Made by a program: the position numbers and the translations under genes. Below, piece after piece: positions 20,586 to 24,922 of a DNA stretch of 64,000 nucleotides (the first letter of the stretch is position 1; each line of letters starts with the position of its first letter). The notes beneath the pieces were generated by a model. That model saw only the letters and a list, made by a program, of their open reading frames with translations, searched no databases and had not been told where the DNA came from. The DNA is from Pseudomonas sp. gcc21 (GTDB taxonomy: Bacteria; Pseudomonadota; Gammaproteobacteria; Pseudomonadales; Pseudomonadaceae), in contig NZ_CP051625.1 in NCBI RefSeq assembly GCF_012844345.1, positions 496,001 through 560,000 of the forward strand. The letters are read 5' to 3'.

Positions 20586-21209
20586 CTAGCGGCTGTGACC
20601 GTTGACCAGTAGCCGGAACGCCGTCTCAGCCTGTTTTGCATCAGGCGTGCGGCCGCAGATCAGGTCGCAGTAGATGGCACTCTCACCGATACGGATGATG
20701 AAATAAGCCAGGCTCTCGGCGTCCATTTCAGGGTTGATCCTGCCGGCTTGTATTTCCTGTTCGAACAGTTTGCGCCAGGTCTCGATCAAGCGGTTTTGTA
20801 GGCCTGCCACGTTGGATGTCAGTAACTGCAGCCCCCATTGCGGTTCGGCGTGCAGGAAGTTGTGCATGGGCTTTGCTTCGATCAGAGCAACGTTGATGTC
20901 GTTGTAGATCCGAGACAGAAAATCGATGCCTTCGAGCTTGGGATCCTGCTGCGCGCGTTCGATCGCCTCGTCATAGATTTCCTTGTAGAGCGACCAGAGA
21001 ATCTCGCCCATCAGCAAATCCTTGTTGCCCACCCAGCGCATCAGCGTCGCCCGACCGATATCCAATTCTTCTGCCAGCAATGAAAGATTCAGCCTACGAC
21101 CCTCCAACCACCACCGTCTCGCCATGCGAAAGGCACTCAACGGCGTCGCGCGTTCATCTGATTTACGCTGCGAGAGTGCCAGGGCCAACGGGGTGTTCGG
21201 CTTGCTCAT
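20586..21209 (-). CDS. TetR-like regulator, QsdR family
   Basis: 207 residues with an N-terminal helix-turn-helix (NLSLLAEELDIGRATLMRWVGNK) and an all-helical ligand domain (IRIGESAIYCDLICGR) typical of QsdR-type TetR regulators. QsdR in Rhodococcus controls a lactonase; the target here is unknown. The nearest candidate targets are itself and the cutinase genes downstream on the same strand side, but no operator is evident. It converges on the sensor kinase, seven bases apart. Confidence 0.85.
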   Translation of the reverse strand: MSKPNTPLALALSQRKSDERATPLSAFRMARRWWLEGRRLNLSLLAEELDIGRATLMRWVGNKDLLMGEILWSLYKEIYDEAIERAQQDPKLEGIDFLSRIYNDINVALIEAKPMHNFLHAEPQWGLQLLTSNVAGLQNRLIETWRKLFEQEIQAGRINPEMDAESLAYFIIRIGESAIYCDLICGRTPDAKQAETAFRLLVNGHSR

Positions 21210-21553: not shown

Positions 21554-22426
21554 TCAGTTGAAATTCTTCTTCTGAACGTCCCAGTCACGTGATGTGCACA
21601 GTGTGCAGTCGGAGCCTTCGAAGACACCGGCAGCGTTCTGATCGCCCATCAACTGGTAGCGATACCAGGCGGTAGAGGGCCCACGATAACCACCGGCATC
21701 GCCCACGGGTTCGAAGTGATCGACTCCCTGCAGCTCACCCCAGAAAACCGGAACGTTTGCGTTGCGGAAAACGGGACGTCCGTTCAATGTCGAGCCTGCC
21801 AGCGTATCGTCGCTGCCGGTCATGAGGAACATCGGACCATTCTGATTGCGCTGCGAAGACGATACATGGCCCAGGCCGAGCACGTATGGCTGGAAGGGTG
21901 CTGTGGTAGTGATGCGTGGGTCCTGGCCGGCCATGATGGTGCCGCCACCGCCTTGCGAATGGCCGGATGCGCCGACACGGTTCAGATCAAGCTTGCCGCC
22001 ATAGGTGCCACCGCTGCGGCCGTTCTGTTGGACCAGATAGTCGAGGCAGGCAATCATTTCCTCTCCGCTGCCGGCATTGGCCGTCGTGGCTGCGGCTACG
22101 ACGAAACCGTGGCTTGCCCAATGCTCATGCAGACCGGCGTAGGTTGTCGCACCACCACCCGTACCGTTACCCCAGATGATGATCGGGTGTTTAAGGCCGT
22201 CTTCGCCAAGAGTGCGCGGGCGCGAGATACGGCAGCTCGGGCCTTCGCTGTTAGCGGTTGTAGCAAACGGGCCGTCCGCAGCGAAATCGCTTACTGCTGG
22301 AAAGCCGGAATCGACCGGTAGATCGCCTGGAGGATTCTGACCGGGAGGGTTGCCAGCCAGTGCGCTGGCGGACAGTGCAAGACCGAGGGTAAGAGCGGAA
22401 AGCTTCATTACAGGTAAATTCATCAT
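21554..22426 (-). CDS. Secreted cutinase / polyesterase, paralogue 1
   Basis: The protein matches, from memory, the P. mendocina cutinase, an extracellular serine esterase that hydrolyses cutin, triglycerides and PET. About 290 residues: Sec signal peptide ending SALAG, a Pro-rich linker (NPPGQNPPGDLPVD), then an alpha/beta hydrolase. Catalytic Ser157 is in GHSQGGGG, Asp207 in GSDDTLA, His237 in VDHFEPVG; oxyanion-side motif WGNGTG. C-terminal CTLC probably forms a disulfide with another Cys. The ATG at 22426 or 22423 follows AAGAGAG; an upstream ATG at 22441 is inside that site. It has its own terminator and a 238-bp upstream region, so it is likely a single-gene transcript. It is the most divergent of the three (IIIWGNG, GEEMIACL). 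Confidence 0.92.
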   Translation of the reverse strand: MMNLPVMKLSALTLGLALSASALAGNPPGQNPPGDLPVDSGFPAVSDFAADGPFATTANSEGPSCRISRPRTLGEDGLKHPIIIWGNGTGGGATTYAGLHEHWASHGFVVAAATTANAGSGEEMIACLDYLVQQNGRSGGTYGGKLDLNRVGASGHSQGGGGTIMAGQDPRITTTAPFQPYVLGLGHVSSSQRNQNGPMFLMTGSDDTLAGSTLNGRPVFRNANVPVFWGELQGVDHFEPVGDAGGYRGPSTAWYRYQLMGDQNAAGVFEGSDCTLCTSRDWDVQKKNFN

Positions 22427-22515
22427 GATCTCTCTTAGCATTATTGTAGGGATAATTCGAACCTAGGATCTTCCCTGACATCTGCTGCGCTCATTGCGAG
22501 TACGAAACTAGCCGT

Positions 22516-22535
22516 GAGTGAATCAACATTCACTC
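22516..22535. promoter_or_regulatory. Perfect palindrome upstream of cutinase 1
   Basis: GAGTGAAT-CAAC-ATTCACTC, an exact eight-base inverted repeat about 90 bp upstream of the cutinase 1 start. It is next to the shared motif at 22544-22559, which contains a third GTGAAT half. It looks like an operator for a dimeric regulator; the protein is unknown. Confidence 0.5.
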
Positions 22536-22543
22536 GCCCAAAA

Positions 22544-22559
22544 GGGTGAATTTGAGACA
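22544..22559 (-). promoter_or_regulatory. Motif shared by cutinase 1 and 2 upstream regions
   Basis: Minus-strand TGTCTCAAATTCACCC lies 118 bp upstream of the cutinase 1 start. Cutinase 2 has the same motif with two substitutions 130 bp upstream of its start. Conservation at matching distance in otherwise diverged spacers suggests a regulatory site. Confidence 0.5.
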
Positions 22560-22614
22560 AAAACGCAATATGTATCAAACGTCGTATGGTGGGGATCGAA
22601 CGATCCAGAAACGC

Positions 22615-22643
22615 AAAAGCCGGCTACCTCTCGGTAACCGGCT
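22615..22643 (-). terminator. Terminator of cutinase 2
   Basis: AGCCGGCTACC (22618-22628) pairs with GGTAACCGGCT (22633-22643) with one mismatch; the minus strand then reads TTTTGCG. It lies about 20 bp after the cutinase 2 stop. Confidence 0.85.
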
Positions 22644-22664
22644 CCGGGACGTTACGTCTTTCGG

Positions 22665-23540
22665 TTAGTTGATGCCCTTGCGCTCGACATCCCAGCTACG
22701 ATCGCTACACAAGCCGCAGTTGCTGCCATAGAAGGTACTTTCTGCGTTGCCATCGCTCATCAGATGGTAGCGGAACCATGCGGTAGCTGGACCACGGAAA
22801 CCGCCCGCGCTACCTACTGGCTCGAAATGGCTGGCCCGTGCCAGTTCGCCCCAGAATACCGGTACGTTGGCGCGACGGAATACCGGTGCGGCGTTCAGAC
22901 TAGGGGAGGCGATGGTATCTGAGCTGCCTGTCATCAGGAACATCGGACCGCTCTGGTTGCTTTGCGAAGAGGAGCGATGCCCGAGGCCGATGGTGTAGGG
23001 CTGGAACGGAGCTGTAACCGTGACACGACTGTCCTGACCCGCCATGATGCTACCGCCGCCCCCTTGCGAGTGACCTGCGGTACCGACGCGGTTGACGTTC
23101 AATTTGCCAGCATAGGTGCCGGTGCTGCGGCCGTTCTGTTGAACCAGATAATCGAGACAGGCAATCATCTCCTGACCTGATCCGGCATTGGAGGTGCGTG
23201 CTGCTGCTACGACGAAACCATGGCTCGCCCAGTGATCAAGCAGCCCGCGATAGGTTGTCGGGCTGGAGCCGGTGCCGTTACCCCAAAGGATGATCGGGTG
23301 CTGTCGACCGCCTTCACCCAAAGTGCGCGGTCGATAAATGCTGCAGCTGGGACCTTCGTTGCCATTGGTAGTAGCGAATGAGCCAGCACGGCTGAAGTCG
23401 GAAACGGATGGGAAATCGCCACCACCACCGCCTCCGCCGTTTCCGCCGTCACCTCCGCCAGGTGGGTTATAGGCCATGGCTCCGGCCGAAAGAAGAACGC
23501 CGATGGCGACGCTTGTCAGTTTCAAAAAGGGTGCTTTCAT
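22665..23540 (-). CDS. Secreted cutinase / polyesterase, paralogue 2
   Basis: 291 residues, same family as its neighbours. Signal peptide ends GAMA, followed by a poly-Gly linker (residues 28-42, almost all Gly) before the hydrolase domain. Catalytic Ser158 (GHSQGGGG), Asp208 (GSSDTIA), His238 (SHFEPVG). It is close to paralogue 3 over the core (shared RTSNAGSG and QPYTIGLGHRSSSQSNQ). The ATG at 23540 has AGAGAG upstream; the frame stays open to 23630 but that part is not a signal peptide. The Gly linker is absent from the P. mendocina enzyme as I recall it. Confidence 0.93.
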   Translation of the reverse strand: MKAPFLKLTSVAIGVLLSAGAMAYNPPGGGDGGNGGGGGGGDFPSVSDFSRAGSFATTNGNEGPSCSIYRPRTLGEGGRQHPIILWGNGTGSSPTTYRGLLDHWASHGFVVAAARTSNAGSGQEMIACLDYLVQQNGRSTGTYAGKLNVNRVGTAGHSQGGGGSIMAGQDSRVTVTAPFQPYTIGLGHRSSSQSNQSGPMFLMTGSSDTIASPSLNAAPVFRRANVPVFWGELARASHFEPVGSAGGFRGPATAWFRYHLMSDGNAESTFYGSNCGLCSDRSWDVERKGIN

Positions 23541-23669
23541 GGTGATCTCTCTTTTTTTAGCTTTCTTATGGGATTCATCATTGAGCTCTTCAGCTACTTC
23601 CAACGACGGTGTTTCGCATTCACGGAGCAAACCCTAGCGCGTTCCCAATTGATACACAGTCGCCTGTTC

Positions 23670-23685
23670 GGGTGAAACTGAGACA
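23670..23685 (-). promoter_or_regulatory. Motif shared by cutinase 1 and 2 upstream regions, second copy
   Basis: Minus-strand TGTCTCAGTTTCACCC, 14 of 16 bases identical to the copy at 22544-22559 and at a similar distance (130 bp) from the cutinase 2 start. No matching copy was found upstream of cutinase 3. Confidence 0.5.
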
Positions 23686-23753
23686 TATTTGGGTGAGCTT
23701 TGGAGGCGGGCCCCCAAGGAGCGCGTCAATATCGGGCTGTAGACGCGTGTCAT

Positions 23754-23781
23754 AAAAAAAGGCTGCCTAAGCAGCCAAAAA
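23754..23781 (-). terminator. Terminator of cutinase 3
   Basis: GGCTGC-CTAA-GCAGCC at 23761-23776 with an A tract on the left, giving a T8 run on the minus strand. It lies about 30 bp after the cutinase 3 stop. Confidence 0.92.
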
Positions 23782-23807
23782 GAGAGGAACCAAGTGAAAC
23801 CCGGTTA

Positions 23808-24686
23808 TCAGTTGATATCTTTGCGACGCACGGTCCAGCTGCGGTCAGAACAGAGTGTGCAGTTGTTGCCATAAAAGGTACTGCGCGCGTTCTGGTCGGC
23901 CATCAGGTGATAACGCAACCAAGCCGTGGAGGGCCCGCGGAATCCGCCTGCGTTACCTACTGGTTCAAAGTGACTGGCCGAATTCAGCTCGCCCCAGAAC
24001 ACAGGCACGTTGGCACGGTTGAATACAGGTTGGGCGTTGCGTGCTGGAGCGGCAATGGTGTCTGCACCGCCAGTCATGAGGAACATCGGCCCGTTCTGAT
24101 TGCTTTGCGAGGAGGAACGATGACCCAGTCCGATAGTGTAAGGCTGGAACGGCGCGGTGGCTGTCACGCGATTGTCCTGACCAGCCATGATGGTGCCGCC
24201 ACCGCCCTGGGAGTGACCGGCAGTACCGACGCGGTTCACGTTCAGCTTGCCGCCATAGGTGCCGCCGCTGCGGCCGTTCTGCTCGACAAGGTAGTCGAGG
24301 CAGTCGATCATTTCTGCGCCCGAGCCGGCGTTGGAGGTGCGTGCGGCTGCGACGACGAAACCGTGGCTGGCCCAATGAGTCAGCAATGCGCTGTAGGTGC
24401 TGGGTGAAGAGCCGGTGCCGTTACCCCAGAGAATGATCGGGTGTTTGAGGCCGTTGTCGCCAAGGGTGCGCGGACGATAAACCGTGCAGTTCGGGCCTTC
24501 GTTGCCGTTTGTGGTAGAGAATGATCCAGAGCGGCTGAAATCAGATACGGAAGGAAAGCCGGAGCCTTCGCCGGGATTCGGATCGGGATCGGGGTTGGTC
24601 GGCGGAGTCGGGTTGTAAGCCATCGCACCAGAAGACAGCAACAGACCAAAAGCAACAGCGGTAAGTTTGTGCAAGGAAGCGTTCAT
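23808..24686 (-). CDS. Secreted cutinase / polyesterase, paralogue 3
   Basis: 292 residues. Signal peptide ends GAMA; a Pro/Asp linker (TPPTNPDPDPNPGEGSG) precedes the hydrolase domain. Catalytic Ser159 (GHSQGGGG), Asp209 (GGADTIA), His239 (SHFEPVG); conserved HWASHGFVVAAA strand and C-terminal CTLC. AGGA lies about ten bases before the ATG. First of three head-to-tail copies, each with its own 3' hairpin. Expected role: extracellular hydrolysis of cutin-like or synthetic polyesters and short-chain lipids. The activity on any given polymer cannot be read from sequence. Confidence 0.93.
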   Translation of the reverse strand: MNASLHKLTAVAFGLLLSSGAMAYNPTPPTNPDPDPNPGEGSGFPSVSDFSRSGSFSTTNGNEGPNCTVYRPRTLGDNGLKHPIILWGNGTGSSPSTYSALLTHWASHGFVVAAARTSNAGSGAEMIDCLDYLVEQNGRSGGTYGGKLNVNRVGTAGHSQGGGGTIMAGQDNRVTATAPFQPYTIGLGHRSSSQSNQNGPMFLMTGGADTIAAPARNAQPVFNRANVPVFWGELNSASHFEPVGNAGGFRGPSTAWLRYHLMADQNARSTFYGNNCTLCSDRSWTVRRKDIN

Positions 24687-24922
24687 GGAAGAATCCTGTG
24701 GATTTTTATTGTTACTGCTTACCGAGCGCTATGGCCGAGACCCAAGTCAGGCTCTGGATTCGACCAATGTATATTGAGCTGCGCGATGCTGGATCTCGCC
24801 CGATTGGGGGAGCAGCCGGTTAAAAACGTGAGCGCCGTCAGAGAAATACCATGCTCAAGACAAACTGGCGTCATGGCGATGGAGTTGTCAGCGGGTGAAT
24901 GTCCACCGGTTGTCGAAATCGG

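Follow-up and report, generated by a model that had tools for sequence, protein, structure and literature searches.

To our knowledge, how bacteria sense polyesters or plastics and switch on their depolymerases is largely unknown. The locus studied here raises this question for three genes at once: what they encode, why three copies are kept, and how they are expressed. In the window, i.e., the whole stretch of 64,000 nucleotides analyzed from a marine bacterium, positions 21554 to 24686 of the minus strand hold three intact, head-to-tail open reading frames (ORFs) for secreted hydrolases, as a first-pass annotation had proposed.

Results

The first transcribed gene, P1 (23808..24686, minus strand; copy 3 of the annotation), encodes 292 amino acids, and its mature form is basic (pI 9.2). 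P2 (22665..23540, minus strand; copy 2) encodes 291 amino acids from the ATG at 23540, which we took as the start, while the ORF tool called a TTG further upstream at 23630; its mature form is also basic (pI 9.05). P3 (21554..22441, minus strand; copy 1) encodes 295 amino acids, or 290 from an alternative ATG at 22426, has an acidic mature form (pI 5.6), and belongs to a separate clade. All three carry the annotated GHSQGGGG motif with a Ser-Asp-His triad at invariant aligned positions (S159, D209, and H239, numbered as in the 292-residue P1) and, judged by eye, an N terminus resembling a signal peptide. Five more PETase-family genes lie elsewhere in the genome.

The proposed membership in the family of the P. 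mendocina cutinase was corroborated by Pfam PF12740 ("PETase"), for which the copies scored 45.0, 54.1, and 58.6 bits (cut-off, 28), and by alignment to solved relatives, the closest being 9w68, 9k0h, and 9hl5, followed by 2fx5. Excerpts of Turak et al. 2025 (PMC12442448) define type III PETases by a threonine (T88) replacing the aromatic clamp residue, Q157 and Y180 in subsite I, the disulfides C64-C126 and C273-C276, and an active site with a shortened loop 2 and an extended loop 3. With a constant offset of three, S159/D209/H239 correspond to S156/D206/H236 of HaloPETase1, and T91, Q160, and Y183 as well as C67, C129, C276, and C279, which would form the two disulfides, are invariant in P1 to P3. 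All three have the G-H-S-Q-G box of type III enzymes, the type I/II box (G-H-S-M-G or G-W-S-M-G) being absent, and align with type III chains nearly without gaps, a comparison made on sequences rather than structure models. In each sequence feature that could be tested, the array copies agree with type III PETases such as HaloPETase1 and the P. mendocina cutinase. Scores for the BHET hydrolase model NF051441 (NCBIfam) were 40.9, 48.1, and 52.8 bits, below its equivalog cut-off of 520, and PF07519 (MHETase-like tannase) gave no match in the searched genomes, with control genomes equally silent.

The enzyme class itself is not new, as type III PETases with PET activity were published in 2025. 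According to the available excerpts, HaloPETase1 to -4, of which 2, 3, and 4 come from one Halopseudomonas genome, hydrolyze PET (PMC12442448), as does R75estA (PMC13396203), and PET hydrolysis by such relatives is favored by high salt (Turak et al. 2025). HaloPETase1 to -4, PmC, dsPETase05, and R75estA share with the array the GHSQG box, Thr for the aromatic clamp, the subsite I Tyr, four Cys (two disulfides), and secretion, and PMC12442448 describes one Halopseudomonas genome with three type III enzymes, the number found in this array. The tandem arrangement, the locus, and the promoter element described below are apparently unreported in both papers, neither of which contains the words "tandem," "gene cluster," "promoter," or "operon."

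Other secreted polyesterases offer partial parallels, as far as the accessible sections of their reports go. The type IIa enzyme PE-H (PMC7031157) is likewise a secreted polyesterase of a marine Pseudomonas, and the secreted Ple-tan1/Ple-tan2 tandem with Ple-solo (PMC10734441) is also partly in tandem and differs in activity; unlike this type IIa tandem, the window holds three type III copies. Whereas the type IIa box is GWSMG, that of the array is GHSQG, and the type IIa-like genes of the same genome encode proteins only 32 to 34% identical to P1. Thermobifida has two tandem cutinase genes of similar sequence and different activity (PMC6505623), but these are actinomycete enzymes with no link to this locus.

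P3 is 67% identical to both P2 and P1, and P2 and P1 are 78 to 79% identical to each other, in line with the annotated closer kinship of copies 2 and 3. An assembly artifact or recent duplication was excluded, since the genome is a single 3.98-Mb contig, the copies differ by 21 to 33%, and the same trio occupies the same place in the genomes of the close relatives G017 and G021, where the counterparts of P1 are 98% and 95% identical. Recent gene conversion within the window was also rejected, with no block above 83% identity in 25-codon windows. Grouping the nine array copies of these three genomes as a single clade, as a species-level triplication would, was rejected by the AU test (p 0.0016); a clade of P2 and P1 was compatible with it (p 0.34), which does not by itself establish that clade. 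The tree omits a gene fragment in L101. For three genome pairs, dN/dS of array copies was about 0.01 to 0.04, with dS near saturation. The annotated claim of at least two duplications with copies kept active therefore stands as to multiple duplications and intact copies, on which, judged by sequence, purifying selection is strong, and is refined in that the duplications are, by the same evidence, old.

Of 37 congeneric (Halopseudomonas) genomes, 35 have the array, in one to three copies and always together with the same TetR gene at the locus; here and in all genus counts, the genomes include many close relatives and are not independent. Candidates in relatives were scored for up to six per genome.

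Upstream of each gene we identified a predicted operator and a predicted -10 element, all on the minus strand. The operator of P1 (24796..24811, TCCCCCAATCGGGCGA) has one mismatch to TCACCC-N4-RGGCGA, and those of P2 (23660..23675, TCACCCGAACAGGCGA) and P3 (22534..22549, TCACCCTTTTGGGCGA) match exactly. The -10 elements follow at 24 nt for P1 (TACATT, 24766..24771) and at 23 nt for P2 (TAGGGT, 23631..23636) and P3 (TAGTTT, 22505..22510). Also, the annotated terminator of each copy was recovered as a prediction, with a hairpin and T-rich tail after every gene on the minus strand: a 6-bp stem with T7 after P1 (23761..23776; z -3.7 for a stretch that holds two hairpins), a stem of about 12 bp with TTTT after P2 (about 22617..22644; fold z -4.2 for the stretch), and an 11-bp stem with TTTTCTC after P3 (21490..21515; fold z -4.6 for the stretch). 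A simple terminator scan lists those after P3 and P1 and misses that of P2, which was seen by folding. Each copy thus looks like a complete transcription unit of predicted operator, -10, gene, and terminator. Within the window the operator alone is unremarkable (3 matches versus 0.85 expected; 7/100 first-order Markov resamples reach 3); when operator and -10 are combined in one pattern, relaxed enough to include P1, only the three array genes match.

Across the genus, the operator is a 16-bp inverted repeat close to TCACCC-N4-GGGTGA. At up to two mismatches it lies upstream of 56/57 type III genes (Markov resamples, 2.4%), the motif having been derived from the same upstream regions; the scan covered 57 of 60 genus rows, omitting two partial genes, with the dispersed gene of the window genome scanned separately. 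A -10 lies 23 or 24 nt from the site in 54/57 of these promoters. The only test free of this derivation bias is that of the type IIa-like polyester hydrolase genes of the genus (30 to 36% identical to P1), which were not used to derive the motif: 46/53 carry the operator at up to two mismatches (resamples, 2.0%), much as the array does. Here "type IIa-like" is a similarity label, GWSMG having been seen in the three genes of the window genome, L158, and L162; one stretch (L236) is cut by a contig end. In this set, TTGA stands exactly 16 nt past a site 21 times, a -10 at type III spacing occurs in 13/46, and another 13/46 show neither that -10 nor TTGA at 15 to 18 nt.

The operator was also found upstream of gspC, the type II secretion operon, in 32/35 cases at up to two mismatches (29/30 plus 3/5), a test prompted by three exact sites noticed near gspC. 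For the 30-gene set, a coding control gave 2/30 and resamples 2.7%; the single miss (L191) has nearly no flank before a contig end, and in L178, with a short flank, distances are off. The gspC of the window genome has a site with one mismatch. Only 12/28 gspC genes show a -10 at type III spacing.

The scan of type III genes from other genera covered 12: the three of G358 carry one, two, and one mismatches, and of the other nine, three have two mismatches (a different, recurring repeat) and six have three to four. The GHSRG-type gene of the window genome has no site, and only 2/6 such genes in the genus have one at up to two mismatches.

Exact operator matches occur at 14 places in the window genome, while the reversed pattern occurs at 1. 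Of the 14, five precede PETase-family genes, one precedes an alpha/beta hydrolase gene, and eight fall inside long ORFs. The sixth of those outside long ORFs is covered by a mechanical ORF of 139 amino acids and faces a second gene as well. All six adjoin a hydrolase gene, which speaks against the idea that a broader regulator reads the repeat, with polyesterases only part of its regulon. For that idea speak sites with a -10 at 22 to 23 nt before a pilin-like gene (L163, Pfam N_methyl; by eye also L160, L168, and L169) and an Lnt-like gene (L159; by eye also L167), and exact sites near genes for an AMP-binding enzyme (L161) and DUF1302/DUF1329 proteins (L155); we regard it as possible but rather doubtful. 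Operator sites also precede genes without a clear polyester tie. The listing of site positions covered genomes up to G010.

The TetR-family gene adjacent to the array (20586..21209, minus strand) would be a candidate for a specific regulator binding the repeat, since TetR proteins bind palindromes. All 35 genomes with the array have its orthologue at the locus, and it is missing from two congeners without type III genes and from all 361 genomes of other genera searched (E <= 1e-45). However, G025 and G031 have an exact palindrome at gspC although they lack this TetR. In 35/35 genomes the operator does not occur within 200 bp upstream of tetR (best, three to five mismatches), and the array of G358, from another genus without this TetR, has sites with one to two mismatches. 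G025 and G031 are 75% and 91% complete, so that the gene may simply be missing from the assemblies, and TetR could also act at a different site; overall, we consider it improbable that the adjacent TetR regulates the operator. Two further leads were set aside: PA3973, a TetR-type regulator of P. aeruginosa, binds a different motif according to the accessible part of PMC9736018, and G031 was uninformative as an "empty slot," its MetR standing in a different context with 0/9 other queried genes in 19.5 kb.

The annotation had suggested a division of labor on polyesters. The conserved difference found between the copies is charge, with pI 5.6 for P3 versus about 9 for P1 and P2. In 6/6 genomes whose third gene of three belongs to the p3 clade, that copy is acidic (net charge, -6 to -12), and the first copies of these genomes range from -1 to +5. 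As a general rule the charge split is marginal: only 8/16 p3-clade members have a pI below 6, and charges diverge within arrays only marginally more than in matched pairs from different genomes (0.046), pairs that are not independent. The same promoter element precedes all three copies, which favors joint expression, and any division of labor is conjectural.

Alternatively, the copies may be redundant and serve dosage without any division of labor. The common promoter element, the identical catalytic and subsite I residues of P1 to P3, the variation between one and three copies across the genus, and PET hydrolysis by each of HaloPETase2, 3, and 4 of one genome (excerpts of PMC12442448) fit this explanation, as do the missing charge split in G006, G014, G020, and G030 and the basic p3-clade copy of G032 (pI 9.2), whose array is interrupted by contig ends. 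The separate clade of P3, its acidity in all six genomes with such a third copy, and the persistence of positional orthologues argue against it, and we lean slightly away from plain redundancy.

Discussion

We consider it probable that the three secreted type III PETase/cutinase-like enzymes of this conserved Halopseudomonas locus are best explained together with the following mechanism. TCACCC-N4-GGGTGA-like sites would be recognized by an activator that acts as a dimer and is probably distinct from the adjacent TetR. At type III promoters the predicted site is centered near -43, a class II position, whereas many type IIa-like promoters have it near -60, a class I position; from there the activator would turn on the polyesterase genes of both types along with the type II secretion operon. 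After Sec-dependent transfer to the periplasm, the enzymes would be exported by the type II secretion system (T2SS) to the medium, where they would cut polyesters by Ser-Asp-His chemistry. Having three copies would increase the dose and provide both basic and acidic enzymes, which might suit different surfaces or salinities. An aliphatic polyester (cutin- or PHA-like) is the probable natural substrate, with PET activity incidental.

The operator pattern predicts one activator for the polyester hydrolases and their likely exporter, the T2SS. Whether this amounts to a dedicated Halopseudomonas polyester regulon, in which one putative activator drives type III and type IIa genes and the T2SS from sites near -43 or near -60 and the tandem copies multiplied under it, splitting into acidic and basic forms at least twice independently, we judge to be almost evenly balanced. 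For regulators devoted to secreted lipolytic enzymes, as proposed here, there is a precedent in LipQR, which controls the P. alcaligenes lipase; that system, as described in excerpts of PMC12134079, is an NtrC-type activator with sigma-54, whereas the array combines the 16-bp inverted repeat with a -10 of the sigma-70 type. Among the papers listed on regulation or secretion, as far as their accessible text goes, none could be linked with this operator or with a regulon common to polyesterases and the T2SS.

A concrete 16-bp candidate operator with fixed promoter geometry makes the control of depolymerases testable. The operator could lead to the regulator, then to its inducer, and hence to the natural substrate, and such a regulon would explain the joint deployment of the tandem PETase copies and their exporter.

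Three tandem type III genes in a genome with eight PETase-family members

The tandem genes lie on the reverse strand and are named in transcription order P1 (23808-24686), P2 (22665-23540) and P3 (21554-22441), which the first-pass annotation had numbered copies 3, 2 and 1, respectively. Their products are secreted-looking hydrolases of 290 to 295 amino acids that all pass Pfam PF12740, with 9w68, 9k0h and 9hl5 (HaloPETase1) as the closest solved structures and 2fx5 next. Alignment revealed the GHSQGGGG box, the triad, Thr91, Gln160, Tyr183 and four cysteines to be invariant across the three, matching the type III signature published in PMC12442448. The type I/II boxes are absent from P1 to P3, and their scores fall far under the NCBIfam BHET hydrolase cut-off. 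The family itself is known, and P1 to P3 add new members to it.

A protein search of the genome (a single contig of 3.98 Mb) yielded eight PETase-family genes, trio included, and a Pfam search returned the same eight plus two weak places. Outside the array, these comprise a fourth type III gene (contig positions 3623313-3624188, forward strand; 69% identity to P1), a gene with a GHSRG box (1615555-1616349, forward; 41% to P1), and type IIa-like genes with a GWSMG box, one at 461492 and a tandem pair at 1983450-1985550 on the reverse strand (at 1983450 and 1984753). Six of the 37 genus genomes carry GHSRG-type genes (36 to 41% to P1); named relatives identify the genus as Halopseudomonas.

Array conservation and history

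Type III genes are present in 35/37 genus genomes: 8 carry a tandem triplet, 5 a pair and 21 a single gene, and one has at least two in an array interrupted by contig ends. Three-copy loci include "Pseudomonas" profundi M5, P. saliphila, an H. xinjiangensis MAG and MAG NORP330; H. bauzanensis, H. formosensis and H. aestusnigri are among those with a single copy. The array slot is conserved: the same TetR-family gene occurs within the locus in 35/35, and a LysR/MetR-like gene flanks the opposite side in 29/35. A dispersed extra copy exists in three genomes (our strain, G017 and G021). Family-wide, 71 of 398 genomes, spread over 3 of 19 genera, match at 1e-60; type III genes outside the genus occur once per genome, except for three in tandem in G358.

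In a tree of 72 proteins, P1, P2 and P3 each cluster with the same-position copy of G017 and G021, and P3 sits within a clade of 16 (p3 clade). Grouping all nine array copies from our strain, G017 and G021 into one exclusive clade was rejected (AU p 0.0016), indicating that the triplication is older than these species. Exclusive pairing was also rejected for P2+P3 (p 0.003) and P1+P3 (p 0.002); P1+P2, the closest pair in the first-pass annotation, is not rejected (p 0.34). The dN/dS values of P1 to P3 (0.008 to 0.042) and the dispersed copy (0.035 to 0.055) are rough, since dS is near saturation. Between G017 and G021, dS is 0.70 for P1, 1.02 for P3 and only 0.23 for P2 (L088 9252-9998, L089 8415-9161), which suggests likely recombination at P2.

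The mature forms of P1 and P2 have a basic pI (8.8 to 9.3) in our strain, G017 and G021, and that of P3 an acidic one (5.2 to 5.6). A p3-clade gene in third position of three is acidic in 6/6 such genomes. In G019, G018 and G010, which form a separate lineage, the first copy is acidic. The split is absent in G006, G014, G020 and G030, the p3-clade copy of G032 is basic, only 8/16 p3-clade members have a pI <6, and the overall charge-divergence test is marginal (0.046).

A shared promoter architecture

Alignments of type III upstream regions contain one conserved block, a predicted 16-bp inverted-repeat operator. TCACCC-N4-RGGCGA is matched at ≤2 mismatches in 56/57 genus upstreams (46 at ≤1), 89 to 127 bp 5' of the start, vs 2.4% of first-order Markov resamples. 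A predicted -10 element, TANNNT, begins 23 nt (51 cases) or 24 nt (3 cases) past the operator, in total 54/57; no conserved -35 was found in these upstreams. At ≤1 mismatch, the motif matches the window 5' of P1, P2 and P3 and nowhere else; a count of three is weak taken alone (expected 0.85; 3 reached by 7/100 shuffles). The composite operator and -10 pattern, widened to admit P1, matched only P1 to P3 in the window. The fourth type III gene has its own predicted operator and -10, and 2/6 GHSRG-type genes carry an operator at ≤2 mismatches.

The three-copy array found in another genus (L126 in G358; L037, P. mangrovi TC11) has operator-like sites at 1 to 2 mismatches. Other-genus type III genes L127, L128 and L132 show a different repeat, T[CA]GCCC-N3-GGTGCGA, 293 to 327 nt 5' of the mature start.

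Scanning our genome for THACCC-N4-RGGYGA gave 14 places (reversed pattern: 1). Five lie 5' of PETase-family genes (P2, P3, the dispersed copy and two type IIa-like loci) and eight within long ORFs; the remaining one is 59 bp 5' of an alpha/beta hydrolase gene, with a -10 at 22 nt and a 139-aa mechanically called ORF overlying the site. Of the type IIa-like tandem pair, the first gene has a perfect palindrome (TCACCC-N4-GGGTGA) upstream and the second a site with 2 mismatches. This palindrome occurs at ≤2 mismatches within ~500 bp upstream of 46 of all 53 type IIa-like genes of the genus (resamples, 2.0%), with TTGA exactly 16 nt past the site 21 times. Among the 46, 23 have TTGA at 15 to 18 nt, 13 the -10 spacing, 3 both and 13 neither. 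Judging from these spacings, the operator would be centered near -43.5 at type III and near -60.5 at type IIa-like genes. Positions near -43.5 and -60.5 are the two classical activator positions.

Secretion genes and the adjacent TetR gene

Exact sites also lie next to the type II secretion genes gspC-gspD in three loci of other genomes (L154, L166, L170); in L154, GspC was confirmed at 101.7 bits (cut-off, 101.6) and GspD at 367.8 (cut-off, 351.35). gspC was located in 35/37 genus genomes, and the palindrome is found upstream at ≤2 mismatches in 29/30 loci, 9 of them exact (coding controls, 2/30), and in 3 of the remaining 5. The site of our strain is ACACCCGGACGGGTGA (1 mismatch). Divergent from gspC across the operator, L154 also has a lipoprotein-like gene (858-2384) with no match in Pfam or NCBIfam; similar-looking genes lie beside the L166 and, less clearly, the L170 sites.

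The TetR-family protein encoded beside the array, whose gene is present in 35/37 genus genomes vs 0/361 others, is an unlikely candidate for a regulator acting at these sites. The upstream region of this gene lacks an operator site, and exact palindromes at gspC are kept in G025 and G031, both without the gene; as both genomes are incomplete, this case against it is not final.

Novelty and extent of the putative regulon

Published work already covers type III enzymes acting on PET, three from one genome among them (PMC12442448), as well as tandem type IIa pairs differing in activity (PMC10734441) and tandem Thermobifida cutinases (PMC6505623). The texts of PMC12442448 and PMC13396203 mention no tandem, gene cluster, promoter or operon. 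The literature searched, which leaves out most subscription journals, contained no report of the operator or a regulon. What is new is the promoter architecture that the genes share; it is well supported as a sequence feature, and from it we infer a regulon.

Operator sites were also found 5' of pilin-like, Lnt-like and AMP-binding genes. In relatives, an operator with a -10 at 22 to 23 nt precedes pilin-like genes (L163 by Pfam; L160, L168 and L169 by eye) and Lnt-like genes (L159 by NCBIfam; L167 by eye). Given these sites, the putative regulon may extend beyond polyesters.
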